Of a stretch of 64,000 bases of DNA, positions 10,928 to 53,695 are shown in pieces. The translations under genes and the position numbers were made by a program. Origin of the DNA: Mesostigma viride (lineage: Eukaryota; Streptophyta; Mesostigmatophyceae; Mesostigmatales; Mesostigmataceae); NCBI GenBank assembly GCA_009746045.1, contig RPFO01001209.1:122501-186500 (forward strand). Reading direction: 5' to 3'. Numbering within the stretch: the first letter of the stretch is position 1; each line of letters starts with the position of its first letter. Below the pieces are notes generated by a model that ran no database searches, was not told the origin of the DNA, and was given only the letters and a program-made list of their open reading frames with translations.

Positions 10928-10954
10928 TCTTAGCAGCGTGGGTGGGTGGGTGGG

Positions 10955-22325: not shown

Positions 22326-22374
22326 AGGAACCTGTACCTCTCCAGGTGACCTGGGGCCACCCTGAACCTGGAGA

Positions 22375-23736: not shown

Positions 23737-24446
23737 CTAGTAGTCAAGGCCCCTGAAGTCGCAGTACTCGTATGCGAACTCACGATCCTCCATATCCAGC
23801 TCTGGACCTGCACCGGTATGTATCAGAACCGGTGTGCTCCCCGCCGCGTAAGTTGCGATGCGCCGACGCGCTACGAGTCGCAGAGGATGTGTAAAGATCG
23901 ACAACAATTCCCACCCCGCGGGAATCCACTCTCGCAGAGATGCGAGAAATGCCACCAGGTTAATGAGAACCTGGCGTTCGCGACTGCGTACGCCGCGTGT
24001 GAGCAGCGACAACAGCGCGAGATCTTGAAATAAGTTTGTCGACACCGCCGGCGCGCCCCCCGTGCGTAGCGATGCCCAGTTTTGTAAGTTTCTCTGGTAA
24101 CCGGTGAGTGAAGAGATGGCGTTGTCCAACTCCTCAATGGCAGTGGTGACTCGTTCACCGACCGCAAACCTCCCCGCACCTGGACCGTGAATTGCGATAA
24201 AATGTTGCGAATCTGGTCCAACAGTGCGCGTATAGCCGGCACCAGTGCTGGCAAATCGGGGTCCTCGGGGTTATCCCCGAGCAATGGAAGAACTGCGCGC
24301 TGCCGACGATGAAGTTCGTCCAGCGATATCGTGACCTCGTCAAGCAATTGCTGCCACGACGGCGCAGCCGGTCTTGGCAAAGGATCAGCCGGTGGTGCGG
24401 CTATTTCCTCATCGCCGGGAATCCGGAATTCTTCAGAATTTGGCAT
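23737..24446 (-). pseudogene. Copia-2 extra ORF upstream of gag (function unknown)
   Basis: Starts 25 bp inside the 5' LTR with MPNSEEFRIPGDEEIAAPPA and is broken by a frameshift near 24110, continuing as DNAISSLTGYQRNLQNWASL to a stop at 23737. About 230 residues in all, predicted mostly helical. I do not recognise it. A stretch with repeated Leu and a GVRSRERQ motif resembles, weakly, a GRRVQGSRVR stretch in the same position of Copia-4. Position before gag is unusual, since gag normally comes first. Confidence 0.5.
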
Positions 24447-24470
24447 ATTTGGAACGAGGCGTGTAATACG

Positions 24471-25086
24471 AGTTGTATGAGAGTGAATGCCACGAATTCC
24501 GCCATGGTTCTTGCAGGAAGTTGCCTTTATTAATAACAGGAAACACAGACGTAAGTCACGTCACTTCCAAGACTGCACGCAGCACAGACGACAGGGTCGC
24601 AGTGCCAAGAGAACGTGCACGCAAGAACTAGCGTCCCGGTGCGACCAAGTCACACATATAGGTTGTTAGGGACGCGTCCAAGTATTCAGCTGCACTGTCA
24701 CAGCTGAACTGTCAATCAATTGATTACACAGACTCTGGCACGCCTTTGGCGCGGAGATCTATCAATTGTCCATACGGCTAGTCCTGTGGACCTATCCGTA
24801 CACTACTCAGCATCAATTGTCTCATAGGTCCTGGCGCGCTACAGCGCGCCTACCTATCAATTGACCATCAAGTCCTGTACAAGTCCTGTCAACGTCCTGC
24901 GGACTATCAAAGTGACACTTGTACATCCTGTGTCCGTACGCGCCCACAGTGGCGCGCCGGGTACTGTCGGCACAGCCTAGGAAACGTCATAACTTTTACG
25001 TTCCTTAACCAAATGAGGCGTTCAAGGTGCCGCTGGAAAGAGCGTAACAATCTCTATCCATCTAACGTAAATCCTTTACGTTAACT
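24471..25086 (-). repeat. 5' LTR of Copia-2
   Basis: 616-bp partner of 14111-14727, ending (plus strand) CTTTACGTTAACT before target duplication GGGAC at 25087-25091. Confidence 0.93.
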
Positions 25087-25091
25087 GGGAC

Positions 25092-25964
25092 ACCTATTTC
25101 ATAGTCAAGGATAGGTTCAGCAAGGCCACCTACATTGAGCCGCTGCCTCACATGTTTGAGGCTGACCTGCACAGGGCTATCAAGATCAGCCTGGCTTTCT
25201 TTCATCCCGTAGTGGAGCTCATGCTAGACCAGCAGTTCCGCTGTGTGCAAGGTTTGCCGGGGATGGAGGCCGTGGTCATCGTGGGGCCTGAGGATCACGG
25301 CAATATGGGCATGATAGATCGCACTGTAAGCTATGTCAAGACTGTGGCAGCCAAGCGACAGGATAACCCACATGGCAAATCCTACGCGGTCAAGACGGCG
25401 TGGTGCAAGGAGCTCATGCATGTGTGCAACCATAGGCACGTGCTTGATGTCAAGGGCTTTGGGCAAGTCACGCCTCGGGGGCTGTCAGCGGGCACCTACT
25501 CACCCGAGGTAGTAGAGGCATACCAACAGCATCTACAGGATACCGCCGCCAAGCTGCGGCTCAAGGATGCCACGCTGCCTGATTTGTCTAGCGCTTTTGA
25601 GGTCGGGCAGTTGGTCATGTTCCACAAGGAGAGCTCGCCCAGCGGCAAACGGGGCACCATGCAGGGGCCTGGGGCCATCACAAAGTTAGACTGGCCGCTG
25701 CGGGTCATAGACATAGAGTGGAATGATCGGGTGTATAGGGTACCATGGGCATCGGTGGCAGGCTATAAGCAAGGGGATAGCATGGAGAGTGAGCTGGCAG
25801 CCAACAGGGCACTGGGGTGGGTAGTGAAGGATAATGCGCCTGTCGTAGCATCTGAGGTGGTACCCCACGGGTCGCTCCCAGGGGCAGACACAGCTACACC
25901 CCCCCCTCCCCTGGGCCCCAATATGACCCCGTGGATGGGTGGGATGAGGATGGGGTGGGTTTGA
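25092..25964 (+). pseudogene. Copia-1 integrase catalytic core and C-terminal part
   Basis: Continues 13901-14110 in frame: TYFIVKDRFSKATYIEPLP, then LMLDQQF (second catalytic Asp) and EDHGNMGMIDRTVSYVKT, where the third catalytic residue, Glu in the related copies (GLVERTM, GIIERAI), is Asp (25317-25319). Then comes a GKRGTMQGPGAITKL segment resembling the integrase C-terminal DNA-binding region. The frame ends at 25964 next to a C-run (about 25900) and the following domains are in another frame. DNA integration role is clear by family; this copy is unlikely to be active. Confidence 0.85.
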
Positions 25965-27682
25965 CGGGACCTAGTGCACGTAGTGACTCACCTCCTGTGC
26001 TAGCCACGGATAATGTGGGAGGCCCGCCTAGCGTGGCCTCGCCGGAGGGTCAGGGTCCTGCCCATGCGCCTCGCCCACCTAGGGACCTGGCTTCAACGGT
26101 CACGGCCTTGTGGCGTGCTCAGGCGCTTAAAGCGAAAGCTGCATCAGGGGTGGCTCAGGTCAAAACTCTCTCACAGGGGGTCAGGCCGGTTAAGTCAGCC
26201 TTGTTTCCTACGTGTAGACCGTGGCAGCTGGTGGCTGTGGACACGCAAGCATCCGTGTCTATTATCTCTCGTCGGGCAGCCACCCTGTATCCAGTGCTAG
26301 AGTCGCCGTACAAATCGGTGACCGACTTTGCAGGCACTTCGGCATATCAAGTTACCGGGATGGTGGTGCTGCCGGTGTTGGGCATTGACACGCCGTTTCA
26401 CGTCGTGGATGGCTACGAGGATGTGGCCTTGCTGGGCGAACCTTTCGTATCATACCCGGGGTTCTCAGTGTCCGCTGACTTGCTGTCAGTCGCGGGGGTG
26501 GGCAGCATCCCGCTTCGCGAGTACCACGCTCCATTGGGGGTGGTGGTCGGGCAGCCCGGCGTCGTGCGGCGCTTACCGATGGCGGCGTTTTCCACACCGC
26601 CGCTCGTCCAGTCCATCATTCAGCCTCAGGATTGGCACCCGCGCAGCTTCGGCCTCCACTCACACTCACTGGCGGCGGATAGCCCTGTGACGTGGGAGCA
26701 ACTTGTCCTGGACTGTCAAGATCCTCTCAAGTTTGCTTTGTGGCGCGACGCGTTCATTCGAGCCAAGGAGCAGTGGCGAGAGCGCGAGGTCTACCGAGGA
26801 TTGGAGAGTGTGCCAGCCGGGGCCACGCGGTTGCGGTTGAAGTTCGTGCTCACCTACAAGCCGGACGAGACCAACTCTTCGGTGGTGTTCCGGGTAAGGC
26901 CCGTGGTCACGGAGACGAAGGGGTCCTCCCCGCTGGACGCCAAGGATCTTTATACCCCTGGGCTCAACCATGTTTCGCATCGGCTACTGACGGTCATCTA
27001 CTTGGGCAAGCGGAACGCGGGCAAGGACTACGGGATGTGGTGCGGTGACTTTCAGCGGGCATTCCTCCACAGCGACGCTGGGGTCGCGCAGCAAACATGG
27101 CAAGGCACCCGCTACGTGGTGAAGGTCCCGGTGGTCTGGCAGGATGGCACCATTGGCAGCGAGTATATCGAGCTGTTGACAGGGGTGGAGGGGCTGCAGA
27201 GCTCTCCCATCATCTTCCGCATTTCCGCGGAGGAGGTCTTGCAGAGCTTAGGGGCCACGTACCATCGCGCGGATCCTAACTTCTTTGTGGCCCCCACCGG
27301 CGTCCCTGGCGAGCCAGCCCTCTTCGTGTGGCATGGCGATGACTCCAAGCTGGTGGCACCTCGCACCTTTGCTACCCAGTTTCTTGCTGCAGTGGCGGCT
27401 AAGTTTCCCCTGGGCAGGGCGGTGGATCATGAGGAGGGTAAACCCGTGGTGTTTTGCGGCGTGCAGTCTACGTTGCAGCGGGATTCGCGTTCTGGCGAAT
27501 GGGTCATGCACATGCAGGATAGCCGCAACTATGTGGTTGACCTGCTGGCCGACCTCCCGTCCCCGCTGTTGGCAACCCATGGGCCCTCGGTTAAGGGCAA
27601 GCTCGGGTGGTTGGCGGACACGGTGGCACCTGATTTGGCGGTGCTCGCTCGCCTGCCCGATGATGTGCTGGAAGGACTATAG
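25931..27682 (+). pseudogene. Copia-1 retropepsin-like domain plus reverse transcriptase
   Basis: 583-codon frame. After a linker, VAVDTQASVSIISRR (DTQ at 26240-26248) and GMVVLPVLGIDTPFHVVDGY...ALLGEPF make a retropepsin pattern with Gln for Gly. RT follows: LRLKFVLTYKP, RPVVTETKG, YTPGLNHVSHRLL, CGDFQRAFLHSD, GVEGLQSSPIIF and FVWHGDDSKLV with HGDD at 27332-27343 (residues 468-471). RT copies RNA to DNA in the cytoplasmic particle. The frame stops at 27682 by a shift just before RNase H. It overlaps the integrase frame by 34 bp; since other copies shift elsewhere, I read this as decay and not programmed frameshifting. Confidence 0.87.
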
Positions 27683-28251
27683 GGTCCATTCATGTTCGGC
27701 GGCAGCTGGCCATGACGCCCGGCATTGTGCTTCGTGGGCTCGATTGCTCACAGCCGGTGCACCTCGAGATAGTGACGGATGCTAATCTAGAGACGCGCAC
27801 AGTCAGCCAAGTGCGGGCCCGCATGGGGGCACTGTTCTTTATTAGCAATGAGGGACAGCCTGGCATGTTGTTAGATTGGTACTCGCGCTTGCACAGCCGC
27901 ATTGCCACTAGCCCCAACACGGCTGAATGCCGGGGCATTGTTTCAGCTATCTCACATGGCATGTGGCTGCGGTACTTGCTGGGTTGGGTATTTGGCTCGT
28001 GTGGGTTCACTCTTCACTGGACTAGCACGGTGCACACTGACTCACAAAGTTGTTTGGCCTTCCTTGACAATCCCTATGCGCGGTCACAGGACGTTGATTA
28101 CCTCGTACTCGCTGAGGCGGCCTCCTGCGTCACGCGTCTCCAGCACATCGCGGATGAACTCAATCCCGCGGATGCACTCACCAAGGAGGCGCGGGAGGCT
28201 GCCCCGCAGTACGCAGTGTTGCGCAAGCGCATGACGATGCAACACCCGTGA
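27683..28251 (+). pseudogene. Copia-1 RNase H
   Basis: Frame resumes directly after the RT stop (VRQLAMTPGIVLRGLDC...) with LEIVTDANLETRTVSQVRAR, WYSRLHSRIATSPNTAECRG, VHTDSQSCLAFL and NPADALTK, the four acidic positions of Copia-type RNase H. Stops at 28251, 380 bp before the 3' LTR. Only the frameshift near 27680 separates it from RT. Confidence 0.87.
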
Positions 28252-28630
28252 GCCACACAGGGTTACGGCTCGGGCGCTTTATGAATACAGCCATAACTCA
28301 CCCTGTGTTGCTAGCATTCACGAATATCATGGTGGTAGTTTTTTTGCTTGTCCTGACCATACCCTATAGCCACGTTGGACGGTGCCTTGGGCCCGTCGGC
28401 GGGTCACTGGTCCTAATAAATGGGTCACCTTTTGTCTGGTGGCATAGTTGTTTTTTTCTCGATACTTATTACATCACTATTCATGTGTGATCACAAGGGC
28501 GCAGGTCGATACCGTGGTGATTTTGACGGCCTTGAGGCCCCCTTGAGTTCCCTACCTTAGAGGGTTTTGTACGGTCTGCATTTGATGTAATTATTTTGAT
28601 AATTAATCAAAGAACAAAAGAGTATGTCGG
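28252..28630 (+). other. Copia-1 3' non-coding region
   Basis: 379 bp between the RNase H stop and the 3' LTR. CAAAGAACAAAAGAG at about 28608-28622 could be the polypurine primer, though eight other bases separate it from the LTR. No gene seen. Confidence 0.5.
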
Positions 28631-28975
28631 AGTTGAGTAACTCTAGAGCCCTAGGATCTGGCTCTAAGTTCCCCATGTCCGTCCGCACGCCTTCCGCTAG
28701 CGTCCGCTAAGCCGCCGGCTATAATCCGGCGGTCCGATGCGGTCGACCGGTCTAAGGGCGGCGCCTAGGGCCGGCGCCACCTAGGCCCCAGTCCGGGGCC
28801 TTATCCGGGTCGGTACGGACAGCTAGCTTGTCCCACGGTTACGGCTAACCGGATAGGGTTTGCTGGCTAAGACATAAACCAGTGGTGGGCCAGCTCCGAC
28901 AGCAGTTCTCTGTGTTCACCTTATCCCAAGCTCAACGTGACCGACCGCCATAGCTGAGCCGGTCGGGCTTTAACT
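28631..28975 (+). repeat. 3' LTR of Copia-1
   Basis: 345-bp partner of 9606-9950; ends GGGCTTTAACT and is followed by GGTGC, the target duplication that re-enters the 48-bp minisatellite. Confidence 0.93.
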
Positions 28976-34224: not shown

Positions 34225-34682
34225 AGTTGGATGGAGACTAGGGACGACGAACAACTGCTGAAGCTGAAAGCGAATGATGATTGTATTATCAATAATACAA
34301 TGAGAGAGCAATGGAAGCTGAGGGCTCAGAATGGAACGTCTGGGCAAACTCGGGTGCTGCGGCACTCCCCAGTGCTACGCCTATATGCCTATGGCGGTGC
34401 TACCTGCAGCACCTCACCAGTGGACAACTGTACACTGCAATGCCATGCGACCACGTCACTAGCATCCACTACACTCGGCCCGTCCAGAACCGGATAACCC
34501 GGGTCTGGCGGGTCGAGCTAGAGTCTAGGCACAGTCTGGCACTAACCGCACATCGGTCCACATGACACCTCAGTACCGTACACCCTGCCGTACTGTACTG
34601 AGGTGTCCCGCTCAGCCGCGGTAGGCAATACGCGGCGCGCAGGCCGGAAATCCGTGTGTCAGCCTAAGCATCTCATCTAACT
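34225..34682 (-). repeat. 3' LTR of Copia-4
   Basis: 458 bp; differs from 42258-42714 at a handful of sites (ATTATCAATAAT versus ATTACAATAAT, AAGCTGAGG versus AAGCCGAGG, CACCCTGCC versus CACCGTGCC), which points to some age. Confidence 0.93.
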
Positions 34683-35743
34683 CCCATTATGTTTTCCTTT
34701 CAGGTTGAAGGCTAGCGACTTCAAGCCTGACCCTGCCCAGCTAGGAGACTGACTCCAAGCTGACTGAGGTGCTGAGCAACTGACACCCATACTGCAACAT
34801 CTGGACTGAAAAAGATGGGCCCCAGAACTCGTGCAATACTTGTGATGGCATCACGTTTAGCTCAACATGCCCGGGGAGTTCCTCCTCCTCGCGAGCTCAC
34901 AAGGGAGATAGCTATGCCTGTCTGCCTATCCAGGGAGTGCATCACCAGCCAAGAGAGCCATTGTAAAAAATGCCAAGGTAACCGTTTAAGAGGTTCCATG
35001 TTGTTCCATCATCATCGCCCACTCAGAGAAAAATACCCAGCCAGGCTGGGTCAACTGAGCTCAGGTTACCTGCAACCTGAGGAGTGACAGTGGACAGGTT
35101 TATTGCACCCTGCACTGTCCATGTTGTACCTGCACAACATGTGAGGACCAGCCACCCCTGCCCTGCACAGAGGGGGCTGAAGTCCGAGTGACAGGTGACA
35201 GGACTATGACATCCTGGACCTGGCCACGTTGCACCTGCACAACGTGTGGGACCAGCCACCCCTGCCCTGCACATGGTGACTGAAGTCCTGGTGACAGGTG
35301 ACAGGAATATTTCATCCTGCACCTGTGCTGAGCACGTTGTACTAGACAACATGACAGCACCCATGCCTTTACTGCCACTGAACAGTAAGGCCAGGTGGCC
35401 CAGGATATCCACAGTGAACTGGGGTCCTGGGTAACCACCTGTCAAGGGAGCTTTGACCCTCCACTTGAATGGGGGCACCTGAGCCACTGAGCTCAAGGCC
35501 AATCCACCAAGGCATACGCCCTAGTGGAAAAATGTGAGATACATCCCATGCCCACCTATGAAGGTGTGCATAACGAAATTCCATGGTGTTGAAAAAATCA
35601 AAACAGATTTTATTGGGCATAGGGCACGCAGATGTATGAAAACAGACTCCAACCAACCCCCCTTGCTGGAAGCCACAACCTACCCCTTGGACCTGCCCAA
35701 GGGGTACTGGGTGACCTAGGCGGCCCTGGTGAACAGGACCCTG
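34683..35743 (-). other. Copia-4 3' non-coding region with internal tandem repeat
   Basis: Just over 1 kb after RNase H. On the minus strand GAAAGGAAAACATAATGGG (34683-34701) abuts the LTR and is a plausible polypurine tract. A roughly 115-bp unit recurs about 2.5 times at 35108-35355 (GACCAGCCACCCCTGCCCTG ... GACAGGTGACAGG). No supported gene. Confidence 0.6.
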
Positions 35744-36295
35744 CTAGGCGTCCCCCCTATGGGGCAGGGTTGCCTGCTTGCCATAGGGGTTCATCAAGTG
35801 GTACAACAGCTGATATTGTTCAGCTGCCTGCTGAGGCACTTTAGTGAGTGCATCAGCAGCGTTGTGTTTGTCCTCCACGTGACGGGTGGACTCCCAGTAG
35901 GTGGACTCCTGTTTCAGGACCACCCAGTCAAGATCAGTGTGCACAGCATAGGGGTTAGCAAGGAAACTGAGGACTGACTGACTGTCAGTGAGCAAGTGTG
36001 CCACCACCCCAGCATTGCTGCCTGCTTGCATCTGCAACCAAACCAGCACATGATTCAAGTACCTGGCATGAAGCACTGCTGACACCACTGCCCTGCACTC
36101 AGCAGCATTGCTGCTGACAGCCTTGCGTCTATGCAACCGGCTGTACCATGAAATGAGAGACAAGGGTGCATCATCATTCTGCACAAAATACAAGCCTGAC
36201 TCCCTTGCCTGCAACTTGGTAATCTGCCTGGACTCCATGGAACTATCCATCATAGCTTGGATGTGAATGGTTTTGTGGAGATCCAAGGAGTGCAA
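35744..36295 (-). pseudogene. Copia-4 RNase H
   Basis: 183 codons: MMDSSMESRQITKLQARESG, WYSRLHRRKAVSSNAAECRA, LLTDSQSVLSFL and NAADALTKVP give all four acidic positions of Copia-type RNase H. The RT in front is in different frames, so the polyprotein is broken, but this domain itself is complete. Confidence 0.87.
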
Positions 36296-37741
36296 GATAA
36301 GGGGAGGGCCTCCTGGAGAGTTTTGGTGATGGCTTTGTGACCTACTTGCATCAAGACATCATCATCAACTCTGCTAACCACAGCCAGGTGAGGTGCACAC
36401 GTTGAGCACAACCACCCCAGCTTGCCTCTAATGGTAGGACAGGCTCCAGGTTTGATTTTTGTTTGCAAAACCTCCAAGCAGCTGTGCATGTAATCATTGG
36501 GAGAGTAAGTGCACACACCCACTGGTTTTGATGCTGCTGGAGTTGTAACATTGTGCCACAAAATTTTATGGCAGTGGTGCCCAGCTCTACTTGCTTGCCA
36601 ATCTCAAAATGCTGTGACACTTGTTGAATAAAATCATCCACAGCACGCCTTGGCCCAGCAATCAGCTGATCATCCCCATGCCACACAAAGGTGAGAATGC
36701 CATGAGGGTGTGGGACCACAAAGAAGCAAGGGTCTATGTCATCATATCTAGCCCCTAGCTTTTCAAACACAGCCTGAGCTGACATCCTGAAAATGCGAGG
36801 AGCTGATTGCAGCCCTTCAACACCTATGTTAGCTTTCAGGTACTGCTGAGGGATGTGTTTTGCCCAAACTCTGGGAGTGGAGACTACATACACCTGACCA
36901 TGCCACACTTGTTGTGCTATCTCAGGTGAGCCTTTCAGGAAAGCCCTTTTAATGTCTGTAGCCTTACATACATAGTCATCCCCATCATTGAGATGACCCA
37001 CAAAGACAGACAGCAAGATTTTTAGGGATGTTTGCTGAATGCCTGGCGTGTACAACTCTGCCTCTGTCAGATCAGTGGTGCCCTTGAACTCTGTCACACA
37101 AGGTCTAGCATGAAAATGACTGACCCATCTGCTGCTGGCTTATGTTTACACACAAACTTCAGGCGCAAGTGCTTGCACCCTGCAGGCTTTTTGTCAATAG
37201 GTGTGACAGGTGGAGTATGAGAAGGACTAAGAGGATCTGGCACTACCCATTCTTCCCTGGCCTTGTTAAAGGCCTCCACCCATTTTAGGAATCCTATGTG
37301 TGTGCGACAGTCTTGCTCTATCTGTTCATAAGAAAGAGGAGACATTTTAGCCACATCATGCTTGCCCAATCCAAATGAGTTGGGATGAAGTTTTTGGTTG
37401 TGAACCAAGTCTGCCACACAGGGTTCTTGCCCTGGGGCATACTTGGGTGTAGCAAATTTTACAGAAGCAATGTTGGTGTTAAGAAGTTTTTCAAGAGAAA
37501 TTTTGAAATGATTCAGATCAACACCACCCATGTCCTGGATGGATAGTCTATCACTGGAGATGAGGACACCAGGGTAACAGAGAAAAGGATCCCCCAACAA
37601 AGCATTCCCTTTATAACCTTCCAAGACCTGAAAAGGAGTGGGGATACCGAGTATAGTCAACATGACCTGACCTAATACCTTGAGGGATGACTGCCCTGAG
37701 AAATCAGCCACATGGTGCCAGGGTGAAGGTTCCAAAGGCAA
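36296..37741 (-). pseudogene. Copia-4 protease C-terminal part and reverse transcriptase
   Basis: The frame 37741-37094 has DFSGQSSLKVLGQVMLTILG and GNALLGDPFLCYPG (retropepsin flap and hydrophobic-LG motif), then the RT N-terminus LRLKFVCKHKP. After a frameshift 37097-36351 has TEAELYTPGIQQTSLKILL, KATDIKRAFLKGS, GVEGLQSAPRIF and FVWHGDDQLIAG (HGDD at 36669-36680). Another shift near 36560 leads to WLCSTCAPHLAVVSRVDDDV before RNase H. Polymerase function is clear by family; this copy is broken. Confidence 0.85.
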
Positions 37742-39180
37742 TGGGGCACAGCCAGGGCACTGATAATGCTGACCTGGGCTTGTGTGTCCACTGCAACCAT
37801 AAATGGGCTATTGTCATTCTGCCCAACCTTCCCCACCTTAGCTGATCCTGCAGCAGTTTGAGCTTTGGCTCTATGAGCTGCTTGTAAAATGCGAACAGCG
37901 TCTGCTAGGCTGCGTTTGGAAGGTGCAGCTAGTGGCTGAGCTATGTTCACACTTGAAGAGGTGATAGGTTGCTGATCACCTGTTTTGCCAATGTGACCCT
38001 CTGCTGCAGGGGGCCAATCCTGCAGTGACTGCCTGCAATCATCAAGGGTGACCTGGGTGTCACAGTGGGTGTGGCTCTCACACTCACCAGTGGGTGTTCC
38101 AAACAACCACTCACTGGGCAACGCTGGGATGCCAGGCAACTGTACAGGGCTGTCGGCCAACAGCTCTTCCTCCTCTGCCACGTCTGACACAGTTGGAAAA
38201 TACAATTTCATCCTGTGAGGTGAACACCTGTGAATCTTTCCCGTGTCATTGTGTTTAACTAACACTGTCCTGCCAGTGGTGTTAAACTTTAGGATGGTGG
38301 CTGGCCCATGCCAGGTACCCACCTTGCCTAGTCCCGACTCCTTGTAGAATAGGACCTGATCCCCTTCTCTGAAGGTGGGACGTGGATGCTTTGCATCCTT
38401 GACAGCTAACCTGCTAGCTGTCTGTGCTCGCTGTGCGTTGTATAGGGCTAGTACCTCAGGTGGATAAATGCCTGCATGCAATCCATCTGGTGTAATGACC
38501 ACCCCTTGTGGGGTTTTCATGAGTGGCCTCCTGTTGAGGACTTGGCACAACCTGGTGGACCACAGAGCTCTGTCAGCATATGACCCACTGTCAGCCAGCA
38601 GATTGCCATCTTCTTTGGCTACAAGGGTTTTAATGGACCTGATGGCCCTTTCAATAATGCCTTGCCTCTCATGATCTTCTAGCCCAGCCAGATCAATAGC
38701 CTCACACCCTGGTTCATTGGCAAGACACGTGAACTGCTGATCCAGTAACAATGCCTCCACAGGGTAGTACCTGGCCTGAGCAATCAAGAGAGCCCTGAGC
38801 AACTGTGTCTTGTCCATTCCAGGTAATGGTTCAATGGTTGTGTACCTTGACCATGCATCTTTAAGTGCCAAGTAAGATTGTCCTTTGATATGAAAGACAT
38901 CTCCTACCACCCTGCCCTTGCTCTTAGGTGGGGTAGCTACATGCCACTTAGGGGGTTTGGGTGCATTGAACTGACAATGCTGGCAGTGGGATCTGACCAC
39001 CTGGCATGCACGTCTGAGTGCTGCCCCCCCTATTGCTGCTGCCACCACCTCTGCACTCACTTCATGCCCATAAAGGAAATGCAACTGCAAAGCAAGCTCC
39101 TGAAAACTGATCTGAGCATCCTCTGGGGGACACTCTGCACACCTTGGGAACCATAGATGTGAAGGTTGGTTTAGAGACAT
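37672..39180 (-). pseudogene. Copia-4 integrase followed by start of retropepsin-like domain
   Basis: 502-codon frame. HHCC: HFLYGH and CQHC. Catalytic core: GDVFHIKGQSYLALKDAWSR (first Asp region), LLLDQQF (second Asp), EDHERQGIIERAIRSIKTLV (Glu). C-terminal part with VGTWHGPATILKF. Then an Ala/Gln-rich linker and MVAVDTQAQVSIISAL (DTQ at 37780-37788), after which the frame is lost. Shows integrase and protease in one continuous frame in the order INT then PR, which rules out a chimeric assembly of the order. Confidence 0.88.
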
Positions 39181-39479
39181 AATCTTCTGAAACCAGCTGT
39201 AGCACCTTTCCAGAACTGCTCACTGCTCTGACAGTGGGGCATGCAGATGAAAGAGGTGAAGCAGGCACACTCAAGCCAGCATGAGAGGGAGACTCACACT
39301 TCTTGCCGTAAGGAGGCCGCTTGCAGTCCTTGGGGTCACCGTGGGGCGGCCCGTGGCACTTGTGGCACAGGACGTCCAAATGCCCCAGCTCGTCCACGTT
39401 CTTGCGGCAGGTGGGCCGCAGGTGGTACTTCATGCCACAGCGGGTGCACCGCTGAGAAGACTTGTCCTCCTTGTCCTGC

Positions 39480-39550
<71 letters not shown>

Positions 39551-40437
39551 GCTGTTGCTGTTGTTGTTGTTGTTGCTGGAGCTGCCCCCCTTGGAGGGAG
39601 ACTGCCCCTTACCCTTGCCCTTGCCCCAGCCCCTGCCCTTGCCCTTGCCCTTGCCCTTGCCCTTGCCCTTGCCCTTAAACATTTGTCCCAGCAGGGACTT
39701 GACTTCTGCCATAGTGACAGGTCTCTTGCTCCTGTCTTCCCTCTCCCTATCCTCCTCCTCCCTCTCTTCCCCCCTGACCCTCTTTACAGAGGTGCCCATG
39801 GCCCCCTGGCTAAGGGGAGCCAAGGCCAGCTTGATATAATCCAATGCCTCCTTCATGTCCTCCCAGTACTTTGCCATTCCTGTTGCAAGCATAGCGTAGG
39901 TGTTTTTGTCAAGTTTGAGTTTCTCAAGGAAGGAACGCAGCAAGAACTTGTGATCTAGCTGCTGGACATCAGGACGTGCTTTGATGGCTAGCTCATATTT
40001 CTTTGTCTCAGCCACATAGTCCACTGATGTGACCCTGTATTCCTCTACCCACCTGAATGCCCCATATATGTCCACAGATGAGGGGGTGGAGAGGAGGTCA
40101 GTTAGCTCCTTCATGAAAGCCTCCCAAACTGCCCTAGCCTGCGTGTCCTGCCACTTGGGATACCTACGCTGGAAGACAAGAATGAGATTCTGAATCTGAG
40201 AGAGGACTGATGGTAGAAATCCCCCTGCATGAGAGATCCAAACCAATTCTTGACATTCAGTTCCTCCCTAGCCAGCTGCAGAGAGAGAAGTGCATGATTC
40301 CCCTGCTCCCTAGTATACCCCTCAGGCAGCCCCCTGACATTAATCCTATCCACAGGACGGTTTTCATTGTAAGTGGGCAACCTAGAGGGGGATGCAGGGG
40401 GAGAGGGAGAAGATGGTGTTGCTGCTGCAGCATTCAC
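39181..40437 (-). pseudogene. Copia-4 gag with (GK)n, poly-Asn and two zinc fingers
   Basis: Starts MNAAAATPSSPSPPASPSRL at 40437, shifts frame near 40240, then continues as helical Gag homologous to that of Copia-5 (RWVEEYRVTSVDYVAETKKY; AKYWEDMKEALDYIKLALAP). A GKGKGK tract and about 30 Asn precede CTRCGMKYHLRPTC (CCHC) and a second finger CHKCHGPPHGDPKDC. The frame then runs out at 39062 while integrase begins in another frame at 39180. Packages RNA by family role. Confidence 0.8.
39478..39578. repeat. (AAC)n microsatellite encoding poly-Asn
   Basis: Nearly pure GTT repeat on the plus strand (AAC on the coding strand), about 33 triplets with two CTG interruptions, in frame inside Copia-4 gag. 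Confidence 0.95.
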
Positions 40438-40462
40438 AGGAGAGACTGCTGAGAGGGAAGTG

Positions 40463-42216
40463 CTACTTGAGTGAGCTGAGCAGGATGGGCAAACATGGGC
40501 TGTGTAGGAGGGTTAGACAACATAGGGGTGGGCTGGTGGGGGTGTGAGTGTGTGTCACTTCCCGCCTCCTGCTGCGGGCCTCCTCCCAATCATGGAAGGT
40601 GGGAGAGAGGGACACTTCATCGTCAGTAGGGTTAGTAAGATCATGATGCAGCCAGGTAGGCAGCCACCTACCCGCCCCTCTCAGGATGGCGTTGTGCAGG
40701 AGCTCCAGACGCACCAGACGCACCCTGCTGCCCTGCACCCTCCTCCCTGAGAGGAGAGCCTGCAGGGCAGGCAGCAGGTCGTCGCACACCCTGCGTGTGC
40801 CCTGCTTGGAGGTTGGGCAGGCCCAGGATGTGCGTGATGATGCACACACCAGGCTGCCCGCCTCCGCGACGTGCATCTGCTGGCTCCTGTCGGCCAGCCC
40901 ACGGAAGGAGGCTGTGGCTGTCTGTATGGCACGCCACACGGCCTCATCACCCAGGGTGATGAAGTCGCGACCTTCCAGGTCGCCCTCCAGCAGTGCTGGT
41001 TGCTGCCCAGCTGGTGGGACCCTGAGGCCCCTCCGGCCCTGCCAGGGACTTGTCCTTGTTGCGGCTAGAGGGGGCCTGCCCCCCAGAGCCGCTGGAGGTG
41101 CCCGTGACACCCTCCATGGGGGCTGCATCCCCCGCCAGCGCCGGAGGCGCCGGCGTCGCTGCCGGGGTCCCTGCGACCCCGGGCGCTTGTGTCGCCGCCG
41201 GGGTCCCTGCGACCCCGGTGGCCTCCTCAGCCACCTGGCCCCCCACGCTGGGCGGGGGAGCCTGCGGCTGAGGTTGGACCCTCTGACCTGCCAGAGGGTC
41301 CTGGGTGGCTTCACCACCCATGGGCGTGTTGGGGGCGTCTGCCGCCCCGCGCTCCGTCGCAGGCGGCATCGCAGCCGCCTCACGCCTATCCGGGCCCCAG
41401 CCAACTGGCGTGACTTGGGGCCACGGCCCCAACGGAGTCAGCGTGATCTCCTGTCGGGCGACCACGCGCAGCGCCTCTCTCTGGCGCTGCCTGGACGCCC
41501 ACTGATCAACAGTGCCGGGTTGTGCCTCGGCCGATTGGCGAAACAGTACAGCCAAACTGCCACCTGAACCAGTGGGACTGCATCCTCAAACGCCCCTCGA
41601 TCAGCGTTTGCACCCGATGAACCTCTATCGCGTGTATCTCCTCATCTGGAAGCAACTGAAAACGTTGATGTATGATCCGGCCGTTCACCGAAATGAACGC
41701 CGGGATGTCGTCCTCCCCAATGGGGAGAAAATGGGGTGGGCGCCCGAACGCGACCGGGGGCGGAACATGTTCCCCATACCGGTCAATGTCCATGATGGCC
41801 ATCTGTCGGCCCACGGAAAGGTTGCCAGACGTCGCAGGTGTCTGCGACGAAAGCTCAAGCGAAGGCCGAGGCCTCGCAGGCTGCACCTCCCATCCTCCTC
41901 GAGGAATCACTCCGCTCACGACCCCCGTCACCTGCGACGGGGGAATTACGTGCCCGGGGGACCTGCCCCCCAGGTGCCATGGCGGACGAACCGCCAGTGG
42001 CAAACGGACGACCGCTCGCCATCCCCCGGGCGCCGGGCCCCACCTGCGGGCCCCGACGCCTGGGTGGTCAGCGACCACCGTGCGGAAGGTGACGTTGGGC
42101 GTCACCCTCGCATCGTTGGTGGAGGGCGTGCCCTCCGGCGAAAGGCGGGGTGAGGTGCGCCTGGCAGGCGCCTTCCCATTGTTGTTGTTGCCGTTGTTGC
42201 CGTTGTTGGAAGCCAT
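40463..42216 (-). pseudogene. Copia-4 extra ORF upstream of gag (function unknown)
   Basis: Begins 41 bp after the 5' LTR with MASNNGNNGNNNNGKAPARR and covers about 580 residues across three frames (42216-41506, 41555-40947, 41404-40463). The N-terminal part is Pro/Gly/Arg-rich, the middle is Ala/Pro/Gly-rich and the C-terminal part is helical (ILRGAGRWLPTWLHHDLTNP). I do not recognise a domain. It is separate from gag, which starts at 40437. The same slot is filled by other unrecognised proteins in Copia-2 and Copia-5. Confidence 0.5.
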
Positions 42217-42257
42217 ATTTTTTTGATTTGCTAAAAAATATCGAACTTTTCAGTCCA

Positions 42258-42714
42258 AGTTGGATGGAGACTAGGGACGACGAACAACTGCTGAAGCTGA
42301 AAGCGAATGATGATTGTATTACAATAATACAATGAGAGAGCAATGGAAGCCGAGGGCTCAGAATGGAACGTCTGGGCAAACTCGGGTGCTGCGGCACTCC
42401 CCGGTGCTACGCCTATATGCCTATGGCGGTGCTACCTGCAGCACCTCACCAGTGGACAACTGTACACTGCAATGCCATGCGACCACGTCACTAGCATCCA
42501 CTACACTCGGCCCGTCCAGAACCGGATAACCCGGGTCTGGCGGGTCGAGCTAGAGTCTAGGCACAGTCTGGCACTAACCGCACATCGGTCCACATGACAC
42601 CTCAGTACCGTACACCGTGCCGTACTGTACTGAGGTGTCCCGCTCAGCCGCGGTAGGCAATACGCGGCGCGCAGGCCGGAAATCCGTGTGTCAGCCTAAG
42701 CATCTCATCTAACT
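42258..42714 (-). repeat. 5' LTR of Copia-4
   Basis: 457-bp partner of 34225-34682; ends CATCTCATCTAACT and is followed by the TTGAC duplication and satellite. Confidence 0.93.
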
Positions 42715-46203: not shown

Positions 46204-46582
46204 AGTTATGCAACACAAAGCTTGGAATGCTTGGGCACTGCCAAATGGCGTGTGTGTGCGTGAACGACGAGACACCTTGGCATTAGGATAATGTGACACA
46301 TATACTGCTGGCCAGCCGCCAACTATGGCTGGCCAGACTTTGCGTAAGTTAAACTAACTTACTGATCCTGGACGGACTAGCCTATCAGTTACAACCTGAT
46401 CTAGTCAGTCCTAACATGACAACTACAGTCCCGGTACTGAGGTACCGGCTCATCACATACTGAGTACAGCCACGTGTCCATGCCACGACTGCTCTAGTCC
46501 AGCACCGTCCCAGTACCCAATTGGGCGCCGGCGGTGCTGGCACGTGTCCACTTAGGCTACAGGCGGGAGACTTAGACTAACT
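46204..46582 (-). repeat. 3' LTR of Copia-5
   Basis: 379 bp, matching 53317-53695 throughout. Contains the dyads CTGGCCAGCCGCC...GGCTGGCCAG and CGGTACTGAGGTACCG. Confidence 0.95.
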
Positions 46583-46965
46583 CCCACTTTAAGTTTTCTT
46601 TGGGTTTCAACAGAAACACACATAGCCATCAAATGGACGCAGCCATTCCCAATGCCTTAAAAAACTGTCAGATAACCTACTAGGACCCAAAGGTCACCTC
46701 ACACATGTACAAGAGATGCATTAAAAAGGCCCCATGTCTCAAGCATGGTTTCTTAACTGAGTGAGATGGGTGCTCCAGGCCCCAGCATGTCATGGTCATC
46801 CAAACAAGTGTCTCACAAAATTTTATTCAATAAATAACACATTCATCATGTCCCAACTTTCTAGACCAGTGCTTCTCACTGTCAGAAAACTACCCAGCTG
46901 CCACTGCAGCCTTTCAGCTGCAGTATTAGGCAGGGGGTCATGGGCTAACATGTACAATGTGCCAG
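46583..46965 (-). other. Copia-5 3' non-coding region and polypurine tract
   Basis: 383 bp. On the minus strand it ends AAAGAAAACTTAAAGTGGG directly before the LTR, a plausible polypurine primer that resembles those of Copia-2 and Copia-4. No gene. Confidence 0.65.
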
Positions 46966-49092
46966 TCACTTCAGACTGTAACCAGGGTTCATCAACCCAT
47001 ACAAGACCTGGTATTGTGGTCCTGCTGCTTGTGGCACCTTGGTCAGTGCATCTGCAGCATTGTCTTTGTCCCTGACGTGGGCTTTAGACTCCAGGTACTT
47101 GCATTCCTGTTTTAGCACAATCCAATCCAGGTCCGAGTGTACAGCCAAAGGATTGGCAAGGAAAGAGATGATAGATTGAGAGTCAGTCAGCAAATGTGCT
47201 TTCACTCCTGCAGAGCTACCAGCCTGGTGTTGAAGCCAGACCAGCAAGTGATTGAGATACCTTGCATGCAAGACAGAAGATACCACAGCCCTGCATTCAG
47301 CTACATTGCTACTCACAGCTTTCCTCTTGTGCAATCTACTGAACCAGGAGACTAGTGACTTCTTCCCACCTTGGTTATGCAGGAAAAACAATCCAGCCTC
47401 TCTGGCTTGAACCTTGGTAACTACCCTGGACTCCATTGAACTATCCATCATGCACGTGATGTGAATGGGAGTAAACAGGTCCAGTGAGTGAAGCATCAAA
47501 GGTGGACCATCATGCAACAACTGCTTGATTGCCCGTGCTCCTACCTCCTGTAGTACCTCATCATCTACCCTGCTCACAAAAGCCAGGTGGGGTGCACATG
47601 TAGCACATAGCCAACCAAGCTTGCCTCTAATGGTAGGGCACATGTCAGGGGTGATGTGAACAGGCAGGACATCCAGACAAGACTTAATGTATTCAGCAGA
47701 GGCCTGCATGGAACAAACCCAGCTGCCCTGCTGCTGCAGCAACTCAAGCATCATGCCACAGAACTTGACTGGCTCCTTGCCCAGCTCTAGCTGCTTGCCA
47801 ATCTCAAAACTGGCAGACACCTGAGCTATGAAAGCATCCACTGCAGCTCTAGGACCTGAGATTAACTGATCATCCCCATGCCAGACAAACATCATCATTC
47901 CATCAGGGTGTGGGATGACAAACAGGCAAGGGTCAATGTCATCATAGGTGGCCCCTAGCTTCATGAATACCTCCTGTGCAGACAGCCTAAAAATTTTTGG
48001 AGCTGACTGCAACCCTTCAACCCCCAGGTTTGGCCTCAACAAGGGTTGAACAATATCCCTGTGCCACACCTTAGGAGTATTCACCACGTATACCTGACCT
48101 CTCCAGACCTGCTGTGCTATGGCAGGGTCCCCCTTTAGAAAGGCTCTTTTGATATCTGTGGCTTTACACACATAATCCTTCCCTGTATTAAGCTGATGCA
48201 AAAACAAGGAAAGCAACACCTTGAGAGACGTTTGCTGAATACCAGGAGTATAAAGCTCAGCCTCTGTCAGCTCTGTAGAGCCCCTGAACTCAGTAACACA
48301 TGGCCTAGCATGGAAAATGGGTGGTCCCCCATCAGCCTGAGGTTTATGCTTGCACACAAACTTTAACCTTAGCTTCTTGGCTCCAGCTGGCATAGCATCA
48401 AGAGGAGTCACAGGTGGTGTGTGTGTGGGACTACGTGCATCTGGAACAACCCACTCCTCCCTGGCTTTGGTAAAAGCCTCAAGCCACTTAAGAAACCCAA
48501 TCTGCGTCTGGCAGTCCCGTACAATATCATCATAGGACAGGGGAGACATGGATGCAACATCCCATCTACCAAGCCCAAACGCTGAAGGGTGTAGCTTTTG
48601 AGAGTGTATGAGGTCCTCCACACACGGTTCCTGACCTGGGAGGTACTTGGGCTTAACTGCATTGATGGCAGCATCCAACCCAGTGCTAATCTGGCTCAAA
48701 GGGATTTTAAAATGATCTAGAGGCACCTGTCCTACCCCTGCCACACTCAACCTCCCAGCTGAGATGACAACACCAGGGTAAGATACAAAAGGTTCCCCTA
48801 ACAGGGCATTCCCTGAGTAACCCTCAACCACCTGAAATGGAGTGGGCATACCCAAGATTTGAATGCTCACCTGACCTTTGACCTGCATTTTGGTTTTGCC
48901 TGAAAAATCTGACACTCTAGCCCATGGTGAGGCCTTCATTTTCAGACCAGATACAGCTTCTGCACTGATGATACTCACCTGTGCTTGGGTGTCTACAGCC
49001 AAAATACTAGGATCTTGACCTGCATCCCCTACAGCATTGACCTGTGCTGTACCTGTTGCCACAACTGCTTTAGTGTTGTGTGCCTTGTGCAA
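46966..49092 (-). CDS. Copia-5 retropepsin-like domain, reverse transcriptase and RNase H
   Basis: Unbroken 708-codon frame. Residues about 30-110: LAVDTQAQVSIIS (DTQ = residues 34-36, 48985-48993) and VSIQILGMPTPFQVVEGYSG then NALLGEPFVSYPG, a retropepsin layout with Gln replacing Gly. RT: LRLKFVCKHKP, ELYTPGIQQTSLKVLLSLF, KATDIKRAFLKGD, GVEGLQSAPKIF and FVWHGDDQLISG (HGDD from residue 405, 47869-47880). RNase H: DSSMESRVVTKVQAREAG, WFSRLHKRKAVSSNVAECRA, LLTDSQSIISFL, NAADALTKVP. It should generate and mature the element's DNA. The true N-terminus probably lies upstream in the integrase polyprotein, reached by the shift near 49150. Confidence 0.92.
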   Translation of the reverse strand: MHKAHNTKAVVATGTAQVNAVGDAGQDPSILAVDTQAQVSIISAEAVSGLKMKASPWARVSDFSGKTKMQVKGQVSIQILGMPTPFQVVEGYSGNALLGEPFVSYPGVVISAGRLSVAGVGQVPLDHFKIPLSQISTGLDAAINAVKPKYLPGQEPCVEDLIHSQKLHPSAFGLGRWDVASMSPLSYDDIVRDCQTQIGFLKWLEAFTKAREEWVVPDARSPTHTPPVTPLDAMPAGAKKLRLKFVCKHKPQADGGPPIFHARPCVTEFRGSTELTEAELYTPGIQQTSLKVLLSLFLHQLNTGKDYVCKATDIKRAFLKGDPAIAQQVWRGQVYVVNTPKVWHRDIVQPLLRPNLGVEGLQSAPKIFRLSAQEVFMKLGATYDDIDPCLFVIPHPDGMMMFVWHGDDQLISGPRAAVDAFIAQVSASFEIGKQLELGKEPVKFCGMMLELLQQQGSWVCSMQASAEYIKSCLDVLPVHITPDMCPTIRGKLGWLCATCAPHLAFVSRVDDEVLQEVGARAIKQLLHDGPPLMLHSLDLFTPIHITCMMDSSMESRVVTKVQAREAGLFFLHNQGGKKSLVSWFSRLHKRKAVSSNVAECRAVVSSVLHARYLNHLLVWLQHQAGSSAGVKAHLLTDSQSIISFLANPLAVHSDLDWIVLKQECKYLESKAHVRDKDNAADALTKVPQAAGPQYQVLYGLMNPGYSLK

Positions 49093-50790
49093 GGCCTTAA
49101 GAATCTCAGCAAATGACTTCCTGGGAACGACAGGATCTGCTCTTTTTGTGACTCCTCCAGGTGTGAGGGAGGTGCTACCTGCTGCTCACCCTGTGCACCG
49201 TCCTCCTGCCCAGGTGGACTATTGGGTTGTAGTGGGGCTGCACTACTGAGGAACACAGGAGCTTCTACTGTGGTGCTAGTGCTTGCATCAATGACGTCCT
49301 TAGCCAATTCATTGGGTGAGATCAATCCACCAGACTCCTGCTCTGAATCCATGTCCAAGAATTCTACCCCTGACACGTCTGCCAGTGGTGGGTAATAAAG
49401 CTTGAGTCTATGCTTGCTGACCACACGCTCTCTGTCATGTTGTATAGTGACTGCAGTCCCTTCTTCATGAATTTTGGTGACTACAGCTGGACCGTGCCAT
49501 CTGGCAGAGTGTGCTCTTCCTCTGTCACCCTCTCTGAAAAATAACACATGGTCCCCCACTTCAAACACAGGCCTGGCATTGTTTTTGTCTTTCTTTGCCA
49601 GCAACTTGGCTAAGTGCTGCCTTTGTGTGTTGTAGTGAGTGTGTACCTCTGAAGCATAGCTGCCTGACTGAAGGCCAGTTGGGGTGATTTCCCCAAAAGG
49701 TGAGGACATTATTGGTTTGGCGTTTAGCTGGGTAGTCACCCCTGCTGCCCAAGATGCCCTGTCAGCATAGCTACCAGAGTCAGCCAACCTGGATGGCATT
49801 TTTCTTATCACATCCCTGATGGCTCTCATGGTACGTTCTACCAACCCCTGACGTTCATGATCTTGAGCCCCAGACACTTCTATCTTGGGCAGGTCATTCC
49901 TGTCCTGGATGCAGAGAAACTGCTGATCCAGCATTACTTTTTCAATGGGGTGAAAACGTGCCAAGGCTATCTGTAAAGCTCTGTGCAGCTGCTCTTTATC
50001 CATCCCAGGCAGGGGCTCCACTACCACAAACCTTGACCAGGCATCCTTTATGACTAGGTAGTATACCGTGTCCTTCACCACGTGTATAACATCCCCAACC
50101 AGTTTGCCTCTAGCCAGTGGTGGTGTGGCCACATGCCATTTTCTGGGCTTAGGAGCATATAGCTGACATTGCTCACAGTGCTTACGTACGTGCCTGCACA
50201 TCTGTTCCAGATCATGGCCTTGTATTTTATTGGCTAGCCTTTCAGCCACAGCCTCATGGCCCATAACCTTGTGCAGTTGCTCTGCTAGAGCACCATACGT
50301 GATTACCTTTTCTGCTGCTGCACTAAGGGAAGCTATGGTGGGGTCACGCATCATGTGTGACAGTGTCATGTCATATGCCACTTCCCAATCCACATCATCA
50401 CACTCAGGCAACACTTGGCAGACAGAAGGTAACAGGAAACCATTTGTGAAAAATGGTGAGGGTAGCTTACAGGTGTCACCCTGGTCTGCCGCCCCCGCGC
50501 GGTTGTAGCGCCCTGGCGTGGTCTTGTTGTGCCTGGGTGCCGTGCAGCGCGCTCCTGCTGCAATGGGGTGACGTGTTTTCCAGCATCCAGGACAAACATC
50601 AACGTCAGAACCATAGTCGGGTTTGCCTTTCCAGCAGTCATCTTTTAGGTGCCCCTTACAAAGGCACCTAGTGCAATGCTTGGTGGGGTCATGAGGCAAC
50701 CTCTTGTCCCCCCCTGCTGGCTTAGCACCCCCTGGCTTGCTAGCTCCCCCACTTTGTTTTCTGTTTTTATTGTTATTGTTCTTTCCCCCC
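49029..50790 (-). pseudogene. Copia-5 gag zinc fingers and integrase
   Basis: The frame is open from about 50790 (KNNNNKNRKQSGGASKPGG). It has CTRCLCKGHLKDDC (CCHC) and CPGCWKTRHPIAAGARC as second finger, then a linker and integrase: HKVMGH with CEQC (HHCC), GDVIHVVKDTVYYLVIKDAW, VMLDQQF, QDHERQGLVERTMRAIRDVI (intact catalytic Glu) and ARWHGPAVVTKIHEEG in the C-terminal part. It ends at 49029 out of frame with the protease; RKSFAEILKALHKAHN before the protease is readable in the next frame, so one indel separates them. Integrase otherwise looks complete. Confidence 0.87.
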
Positions 50791-51534
50791 CCTTGTTTCC
50801 ACCTCCCCCACTTTTGTTGTTTTTGTTTTTATCCCCCCCATTACCGCCTTTACCTGGGCTACCAGCGACTGCATCTGCTTCTTGGAGAGCCCCGTACCTG
50901 AGGCTTCCTCCCCCTTTACCTGCTTCACCTTTCCCTCCTTGGCTGCAGCAGCAAACGGCTCTAGGCATTGCTGCACATAGGCCATTGCCTTCCTGAAGTC
51001 CTCCCACTTATCCTTCAGACCTGCCAGGATTACTGACAGGGTGGTGGGGTCCAGTTCTGCCTTTTGTAGCCATAGGTGTACTAGGTACTTGGCATTGAGC
51101 TTCTTCAGCTCCTCATCTCCCTCTATGTACATGACATATTTTTTGTTGTCACTCACATAGTCACGCTTATTGACCTTATAGGCCTCTATCCACTGGAAGC
51201 CCTTAAGCACTTCTAAGTGCTCCCCCGTGGTAACAAGTGCCCTAAGATCAACCATGAACTGCGCCCACAACACATTTTCTGCCACGTCTACCCCGCTGCT
51301 GGCACGCTTTTGGTACAATTGTACCAACTGCTGGATAGGCTTGGCAGATTGATGGATGGGTGTGGACGCACGTAGAGAGGCAAACCAATCACGGACATTG
51401 TCGCTAGCATATGCATGTGACAACTTAAACAACCACTCCCTAGCTTCGTCCTGGGTATGGCCCTCTGGCAAACCCGGAAACACTAGCTTGTCCTCTTTCT
51501 TTTTTGGATCAAACCTGGGCCTAGTCAAGGCCAT
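50773..51534 (-). CDS. Copia-5 Gag N-terminal region
   Basis: 253 codons: MALTRPRFDPKKKEDKLVFP, LPEGHTQDEAREWLFKLSHA, QWIEAYKVNKRDYVSDNKKY, GLKDKWEDFRKAMAYVQQCL, then a Lys-rich stretch. It aligns along its length with Copia-4 Gag, so it is the capsid part. The frame leaves the zinc-finger/integrase frame at a run of eight C on the plus strand near 50785; one base there would join the two. Its start overlaps the end of the extra ORF by 10 bp. Confidence 0.82.
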   Translation of the reverse strand: MALTRPRFDPKKKEDKLVFPGLPEGHTQDEAREWLFKLSHAYASDNVRDWFASLRASTPIHQSAKPIQQLVQLYQKRASSGVDVAENVLWAQFMVDLRALVTTGEHLEVLKGFQWIEAYKVNKRDYVSDNKKYVMYIEGDEELKKLNAKYLVHLWLQKAELDPTTLSVILAGLKDKWEDFRKAMAYVQQCLEPFAAAAKEGKVKQVKGEEASGTGLSKKQMQSLVAQVKAVMGGIKTKTTKVGEVETRGGKEQ

Positions 51535-53207
51535 GTTGGAGGTTGTTGTCGTTCCTGCAGTTGGCGGTTGCTGCTGCTGCTGCTGTTGCTGTCGCTGCTG
51601 CTGCTGCTGCCGCTCCCCGCCCTCGTGCCGTGTTGGTGCAGACTCCTGCGTGCCGTGTCCTGCCCCGCCCTGGTTCCCCCCCTCTCCCCGTCATCCGCCC
51701 CCTCGTCCCTCCTCCGCTTTGGCTGGGGTGCGCATGCCTCTGCCTGCGCCCTTCGCTTGGCCGGCTTCAGCGATGCCACTAGCCTGGCCACCGTGTCGGC
51801 CAACGTCGCCTGCTCGCCTGGAGACAGCGGGTATCTGCTTCCAGCATGGCTTGCGCCAGCTGAAGCTGATCAATGAGGTCCTCCCTGTTGGACAGGTTAG
51901 ACGGTCCGGCTTCACCAGGCTGCCTGTAAACACGCGTGCGTGCGGCAGTGCCATCACGGTTGGTGATGGTCTTCTTAGGCTGCGACAAATAATAAAACAT
52001 TTGGCTTGCAGAAACATCCTCATCCGGCCCAAGGCCAAACTCGACTCTCACCGCTTCACCAAGCGGTCCCCTCACCGCTGTCTTACGTGCATGCTTGAGC
52101 ATGCGTCGTCGCTGCTTCAGGATGCGCTGCTCCATCCTTCCCACATTGGCTTCCCACCGTGCCAGCGAGCGTCTGTAACGTTCCTGCGCCTCCGGCCTGC
52201 CAGGCGCCTCCATCTCAGCCATATGCTGCAGCTTCATCGCCTGCGCCTTTTTCCATACCCTGAGTTCGCGGACCATCCGGTCCCGGCGCACCTGGGTGAT
52301 CGACATTTTGAGCTTGATGCGCTCCGTCAGCGCGATTTGCCTCACCCGCTCCGCCTGCTCGCGCTCCTTCTTGGCCTCTGCCGCGGCCCTCCGCGCCTGC
52401 CGACGCTGCTTGTCGGCGTGAACGTCGCCATGCGCTTCTGCGCTCACGCTCCCGCGCCGTCATTGCCGGGGTCATGAGGATCTCGTCCTCAGCAGATGCC
52501 CCCGACGGACCTGTCAAAGAGAACTCCGACTCCTGATGCACACCTAGGTGTACCTTCGGCTCACGAGACCGACGCAAACTTTTAAAACATGCAAGGTCCC
52601 CCCGACGCATCACCTCAAACTGCTCCTCGCCAGAAGCCAGCTCACTGCTGTGAAACAACGCCCGGCGCACGTTCTCAGCATCCGCCCTCTGCTGGGCGCG
52701 AGCACGTGCGTGCGTGTCTGCGCGCCGAAGCTCCCGCTCCTCGCGCTCAGCCATCGCCCTAGCGAGGCCTTCATCCGCAGCCACCTGTCGCGAGCGTGCG
52801 TCGTCCTGCTCCTCGGCTGAGGAACCAGGCTGGAGCCCATACAGCTCCATGGACTCCTCCTCTGCAGGAGGTGCCGAAGGTCCAGCCCCCGCCGCTGCAG
52901 CTGTCGGTGCGTAGGGAGGACCCCTCGGCCTGTTCACCACAGGCGTGGATCCCCTCCCCTGCGGATACAGGGGGACTCGCAGCACCACGCTGCTGTACGA
53001 ACCCTCGGACAAGTGGCCCGACGAAGACGTTCCCGACGTCGAGGGATCAGCCTCCATGGACTGATTGAAACTACGAGCCGCCCGCTCGATCTCTTTCTGA
53101 GCCGCGAGCTCAGAGTCGGACGTCCCCGAAGACGAGGACGTCGGGGAGCTAGACCTGCTCCTGGCATGCATCGGCGCCTTGCCCTTGTTGCTGTTGGGGT
53201 TAGACAT
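51525..53207 (-). pseudogene. Copia-5 extra ORF upstream of gag, charged coiled-coil protein
   Basis: Starts MSNPNSNKGKAPMHARSRSS about 110 bp after the 5' LTR and covers about 560 residues in three frames (53207-52215, 52447-51779, 51803-51525). N-terminal part: Ser/Pro/Gly-rich. Middle: Arg/Glu/Ala-rich long helices (AEREERELRRADTHARARAQ; ERVRQIALTERIKLKMSITQ) likely forming coiled coil. C-terminal part: PKRRRDEGADDGERG, basic, then Ser-rich. No enzymatic motif. Family unknown. The overlap with gag by a few bases suggests the two may be translated together. Confidence 0.55.
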
Positions 53208-53316
53208 TTTTCCAAAAAAAAAAAACTGGAGGTCGAAAAATGGAATGGGTTGTTTTTGTTCGCGAAATGAACGCTCGTCGTCCTGTTGTGTGTATGTTTT
53301 TGGAGTTTTTAATGCA

Positions 53317-53695
53317 AGTTATGCAACACAAAGCTTGGAATGCTTGGGCACTGCCAAATGGCGTGTGTGTGCGTGAACGACGAGACACCTTGGCATTAGG
53401 ATAATGTGACACATATACTGCTGGCCAGCCGCCAACTATGGCTGGCCAGACTTTGCGTAAGTTAAACTAACTTACTGATCCTGGACGGACTAGCCTATCA
53501 GTTACAACCTGATCTAGTCAGTCCTAACATGACAACTACAGTCCCGGTACTGAGGTACCGGCTCATCACATACTGAGTACAGCCACGTGTCCATGCCACG
53601 ACTGCTCTAGTCCAGCACCGTCCCAGTACCCAATTGGGCGCCGGCGGTGCTGGCACGTGTCCACTTAGGCTACAGGCGGGAGACTTAGACTAACT
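53317..53695 (-). repeat. 5' LTR of Copia-5
   Basis: 379-bp partner of 46204-46582, followed at 53696 by ATCAT and a 21-bp satellite remnant that ends where the next element starts. Confidence 0.95.

Follow-up and report, generated by a model that had tools for sequence, protein, structure and literature searches.

A retropepsin-like domain between integrase and reverse transcriptase in Copia-like retrotransposons of Mesostigma viride

Known retrotransposon orders and the Mesostigma elements

In Ty1/Copia long terminal repeat (LTR) retrotransposons the protease is encoded 5' of the integrase, and the catalytic box of the reverse transcriptase (RT) is usually YVDD. In Ty3/Gypsy elements and retroviral protease-RT units, including PF12382 (A2E, Tf1 type), the protease lies directly 5' of RT; in Gypsy the integrase follows RNase H, the protease motif is DTG or DSG, and the RT is of another family. 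Ddi1/Ddi2, a cellular protein, has a protease-like domain with Gly in its motif. Here we describe four LTR elements of Mesostigma viride (Copia-5, Copia-4, Copia-2 and Copia-1) found in the window, that is, the whole stretch of 64,000 nucleotides that was analysed (contig RPFO01001209.1, positions 122,501 to 186,500). All four carry, between integrase and RT, a domain of ∼90 amino acids with a DTQ motif (three elements) or a DTN motif (one element) and ALLG further downstream. As in Ty3/Gypsy and retroviral units this domain directly precedes RT, but the integrase does not follow RNase H.

Several features tie these elements to Ty1/Copia. The integrase lies 5' of RT, and the target duplications are 5 bp long. 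The RNase H ends in ADxxTK, given in passages of PMC5445492 as a signature of Copia GalEa elements. The RT of Copia-5 may be of the RVT_2 type, its score falling just under the cut-off (Table 1); the proteins P0001 and P0002 and the Copia-1 open reading frame (ORF) gave no match to RVT_2. Other features set the elements apart. The protease-like domain is found 3' of the integrase, and the RT box is HGDD in all five families compared (the four window elements and P0002, which represents a family with DTM in place of DTQ). The C-terminal motif of the domain, LLG in the window elements and LIG in P0002, is of the ILG type, and not the ILS that part of PMC2642776 describes as usual, if not absolute, in Copia proteases. 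Because the defining order gag-protease-integrase-RT-RNase H is not the one found, the elements are, on their sequences, Copia-like but are not filed here as Ty1/Copia.

The domain and its conservation

The original prediction had placed a DTQ or DTN motif after the integrase in each of the four elements, with Asp and Thr retained and an ALLG-type motif downstream. This holds throughout: the Asp codon lies at most 8 bases from where it had been put, the third residue reads Gln in Copia-5, Copia-4 and Copia-1 and Asn in Copia-2, and the downstream motif is present in each (Table 1). In P0002 the third residue is Met. A DTx[AS]...LLG pattern, drawn up post hoc once the motif was known, gave two matches in the six frames (both copies with an unbroken domain) versus none in 200 frame shuffles. 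Read 5' to 3', Copia-5 consists of a gag-like frame, zinc knuckles and integrase, the retropepsin-like domain, and RT with RNase H. The LTR pairs of all four elements are 99.1–100% identical, and their 5-bp target duplications are exact.

Constraint was compared across the five families, with identity and the ratio of nonsynonymous to synonymous rates (dN/dS) taken among the three that have unbroken sequence. The Asp codon is GAC in four families and GAT in one, the Thr codon occurs in all four synonymous forms, and the codon after Thr is CAA (three families), AAT or ATG, with Gly in no copy read. Pairwise identity is 46–54% in the domain, 45–53% in RT, 39–44% from thumb to RNase H and 37–43% in the linker; the domain is conserved about as strongly as RT. 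Within it the proportions of synonymous and nonsynonymous differences are 0.69–0.71 and 0.36–0.42, and dN/dS is ∼0.2–0.3, with dS near saturation (near 2). Asp and Thr have thus been retained through synonymous change in all five families.

Table 1. Features of the LTR elements in the window
Feature	Position	Strand	Details
Copia-5 element	46204..53695	-	LTRs 46204-46582 and 53317-53695, 100% identical over 379 bp; 5-bp target duplication ATCAT
Copia-5 gag-like frame, open between two stops	50773..51690	-	no protease family matches
Copia-5 integrase preceded by two zinc knuckles, frame open between two stops	49029..50828	-	match to rve at E 1.9e-5, under the cut-off; HHCC and zinc knuckles assigned by reading the sequence
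Copia-5 retropepsin-like domain	48745..49005	-	DTQ at 48993, ALLGEPF at 48807
Copia-5 linker, RT with HGDD box, RNase H with C-terminal ADALTK	46966..48744	-	RVT_2 E 3.7e-7, 30.4 bits vs cut-off 31.6; residues read
Copia-4 element	34225..42714	-	LTR pair 99.1% identical; target duplication TTGAC
Copia-4 domain (end approximate)	37540..37800	-	DTQ at 37788, integrase frame; ALLGDPF at 37603, other frame
Copia-2 element, inserted into Copia-1	14111..25086	-	LTR pair 99.5% identical; target duplication GGGAC; nested gag-only element inside
Copia-2 domain (end approximate)	20580..20840	-	DTN at 20828, integrase frame; ALLGQNF at 20643, other frame
Copia-1 element, integrase split by Copia-2	9606..28975	+	LTR pair 100% identical over 345 bp; target duplication GGTGC
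Copia-1 retropepsin-like domain	26228..26488	+	DTQ at 26240, ALLGEPF at 26426
Gag-only LTR element nested in Copia-2	16141..19295	+	744-bp LTRs 100% identical, TG...CA ends; target duplication CTGCT

Directly 5' of the DT motif there is a helix-like stretch such as SLADAVRILQAAHRAKA, similar by eye in the four window elements and in P0004, which may be part of the domain or mark the junction of integrase and protease. The third catalytic residue of the integrase is Glu in Copia-5 (49032-50699), Copia-4 (37675-39180), Copia-2 (20607-22325) and P0003, and Asp in Copia-1 (25152-25961, plus strand) and in the DTM family (P0004 compared). The LTRs of all four elements have the termini AGTT...AACT, not TG...CA, and the region 3' of the 5' LTR is unlike an initiator-tRNA primer site. 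The nested gag-only element has a Copia-type gag (below cut-off) and a zinc knuckle, with no pol seen.

Reading frames and copies elsewhere in the genome

All four window copies switch frame somewhere between the integrase and the end of the domain, each at a different place. In Copia-5 and Copia-1 the switch is 5' of the domain. In Copia-4 (ORF 37672-39180) and Copia-2 (ORF 20604-22325) integrase and DT motif do share one frame, as had been claimed, but the switch falls inside the domain, 3' of the DT motif, so that the half with ALLG is read in a different frame. Copies elsewhere were searched for in the 439.9-Mb, 2243-contig assembly of the same genome, using the 708-amino acid protease-RT-RNase H protein of Copia-5 and P0002 as queries; only the best candidates were scored, and the counts are lower bounds. 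Among the best 63 candidates for Copia-5, 48 obtain the full 1630.9 bits across residues 1–708, being identical to the query. Open frames of at least 1000 amino acids, extending upstream, hold 42 of the 63 (10 of these frames being 1287 amino acids long), and the other 21, the window copy included, lie in frames of 735–864 amino acids. One 1287-amino acid copy (L031, the only one read at the junction) has the integrase tail and the DTQ domain in a single frame. For P0002, which itself matches the genome at 100%, 13 of the best 71 matches lie in a 1249-amino acid frame, in which the integrase is found upstream (L003). Thirty copies of the DTM family were fetched: DTM is present in 28 and the domain is unbroken in 20. 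The two without DTM are L028, with a stop inside the motif, and L027, a deletion copy that lacks the motif and in which gag runs directly into the domain's second half.

A programmed frameshift between integrase and protease is not required, since the switch sites differ between window copies and, in two families, longer frames run without a break in many other copies (junctions read in L031 and L003). Misassembly or nesting can likewise be rejected as the cause of the order, because it recurs in four elements, each bounded by its own LTR pair and target duplication, and in copies elsewhere in the genome; the original prediction was right that it is no assembly artefact. One copy of the DTM family has a gag frame that ends in zinc knuckles, followed by TGA and then by the integrase in the same frame; in L032 a single TGA (1828-1830) splits gag and pol, and stop-codon readthrough could operate there.

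Possible function, origin and significance

The reading that we favour, and regard as somewhat probable, is that these are recently amplified Copia-like LTR elements with the order gag-integrase-protease-RT-RNase H, whose product is processed by a dimeric aspartic protease without the triad Gly. The protease would be the retropepsin-fold domain that adjoins RT upstream, yet lies downstream of the integrase. As a homodimer it would liberate itself, integrase and RT-RNase H from the polyprotein at predicted cleavage sites, with the Asp and the next Thr of the catalytic set retained and with Gln, Asn or Met where Gly is usual. What suggests such an enzyme is that Asp and Thr are retained, that the domain has an LLG motif and adjoins RT, and that no other protease was recognised in the frames scanned.

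That the domain is retropepsin-like is indicated by profiles and predicted structures. The profile comparison proposed earlier did return retropepsins: Pfam families of clan AA match the domain below cut-off (for Copia-5 the best is PF12382, E 0.0017), and HIV-1 protease was the sole return of a PDB profile search (E 0.22–1.7). A PDB sequence search with the Copia-5 domain alone had no match at E≤10, and NCBIfam gave nothing useful. AlphaFold models of two families (predicted local distance difference test scores 82 and 76) take up a retropepsin fold, and in Foldseek searches Ddi1 and viral proteases make up 50 of 50 matches listed for each. The best structural match of both models is the protease-like domain of Ddi1/Ddi2, with an identity of 16–22% in the Ddi1 matches listed. 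The Asp and following Thr of clan AA are found in five of five families, as is its ILG-type C-terminal motif.

Against the favoured reading stand the scores, the missing Gly, a stray motif upstream of one integrase and, for the origin, the poor grouping of such proteases. All the Pfam matches are below the curated cut-offs (the best has 18.8 bits versus 27), as is every other sequence score, and the template modelling scores in Foldseek are 0.4–0.6. These values would suit a beta-rich linker unrelated to retropepsin, resembling it by chance in DTx and LLG, but Pfam, the PDB profile and two models agree on one clan with the motifs in their proper places, and the shuffles never produced the motif pair, so we consider this very unlikely. 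As for the Gly, we know of no active natural enzyme that lacks it. The position is taken by Gln, Gln, Gln, Asn and Met in the five families, and according to passages of PMC11957791 active A2 enzymes conserve Gly without exception. The main rival is for this reason a pseudoprotease, a domain with the retropepsin fold, perhaps dimeric, that does not cut and would serve for dimerisation or spacing between integrase and RT, with a host enzyme or no processing at all. This is possible, though we find it rather doubtful: the Asp is retained in five of five families despite a dS near 2, which a structural role alone would not obviously demand, and the frames scanned yield no other recognised protease. 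The original prediction had offered an altered protease or a structural relic under selection; the fold, the place between integrase and RT, Asp-Thr without Gly and the constraint agree with it, but a mere relic is not supported.

Another protease might be sought between the zinc knuckles and the integrase, where the original prediction saw no protease motif. That is correct for Copia-5 and Copia-4, in which, as in one DTM-family copy, this interval contains no DTG or DSG; in Copia-5 it spans ∼80–130 residues from the second zinc knuckle to the integrase histidine region (read by eye), and the frame matches rve only. DSG at 49781 (Copia-5 ORF) and 38592 (Copia-4 ORF) lies within the integrase itself. 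Two exceptions that it did not mention are a stray DTGA in Copia-1 and a stray DSGS in Copia-2, neither of which looks like a protease. The DSGS of Copia-2 at 22139 (minus strand) falls in a low-complexity, acidic part of an ORF whose only match is rve. The DTGA of Copia-1 (LDTGAVG, at 13641, plus strand, ORF 12885-13787) follows the zinc knuckles, 85 codons 5' of the integrase histidine region, and could hint at a working protease upstream, the downstream domain then being a duplicate or an extra. However, its frame has no LLG-type motif at the proper distance and matches no Pfam family at E≤10, and the three elements named above have no such motif there. It is taken as a chance occurrence, and of all the explanations a working upstream protease seems to us the least probable. 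No protease domain was recognised by Pfam in the frames scanned across the interval.

On the origin of the favoured protease we are more tentative, and hold it possible that this is a lineage with an unrecorded order, gag-integrase-protease-RT-RNase H, in which, after loss of the Copia protease, a retropepsin of ILG type (Gypsy/Ddi1-like) took its part beside RT and catalyses without Gly (DT[Q/N/M]). Replacement of the lost protease by a non-Copia one would be preferred to simple relocation, because the motif is LLG/LIG instead of ILS and PF12382, the Pfam family that Copia-5 matches best, is the A2E family according to passages of PMC3248453 and is assigned to Tf1-2 in part of PMC2642776. An origin drawn from protease similarity is weakened by a further statement in the same passages of PMC3248453, that retrotransposon proteases fall into no well-defined groups. 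An altered third residue with Asp-Thr retained is listed for human ERVK protease loci (DTR, DTE, DTV, DTD; PMC6058741, Table 4), as here; these are few loci within DTG groups, whereas in Mesostigma Gly is in no examined family and the copies are many.

The original prediction is extended by a third family, whose motif is DTM, by unbroken frames in many copies, and by a C-terminal motif of the ILG rather than the ILS type. Protein searches for relatives (7994–7997 candidates scored) returned Mesvir1-named proteins only, with a limited sensitivity, as P0002, though contained in one query, is absent from its results. Scans of viral and prokaryotic contigs gave no relatives, which carries little weight given the nature of both collections. 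No report of the order integrase-protease-RT, or of a DTQ, DTN or DTM retropepsin, was found among the titles and abstract beginnings listed in searches of the open-access literature, and two Mesostigma genome papers (one is PMC6947507) do not use the words copia and gypsy in their main texts. Surveys may have filtered out lineages of this kind, since a large plant survey with 5410 Copia polyproteins, according to passages of PMC6317226, discarded elements whose order was not the expected one, treating them as probable mispredictions.

The order of pol domains is a defining criterion for LTR retrotransposon superfamilies. If the enzyme is active, the Gly of the retropepsin triad would be dispensable in nature; if it is inactive, the domain would be a conserved pseudoprotease within a replicating element.
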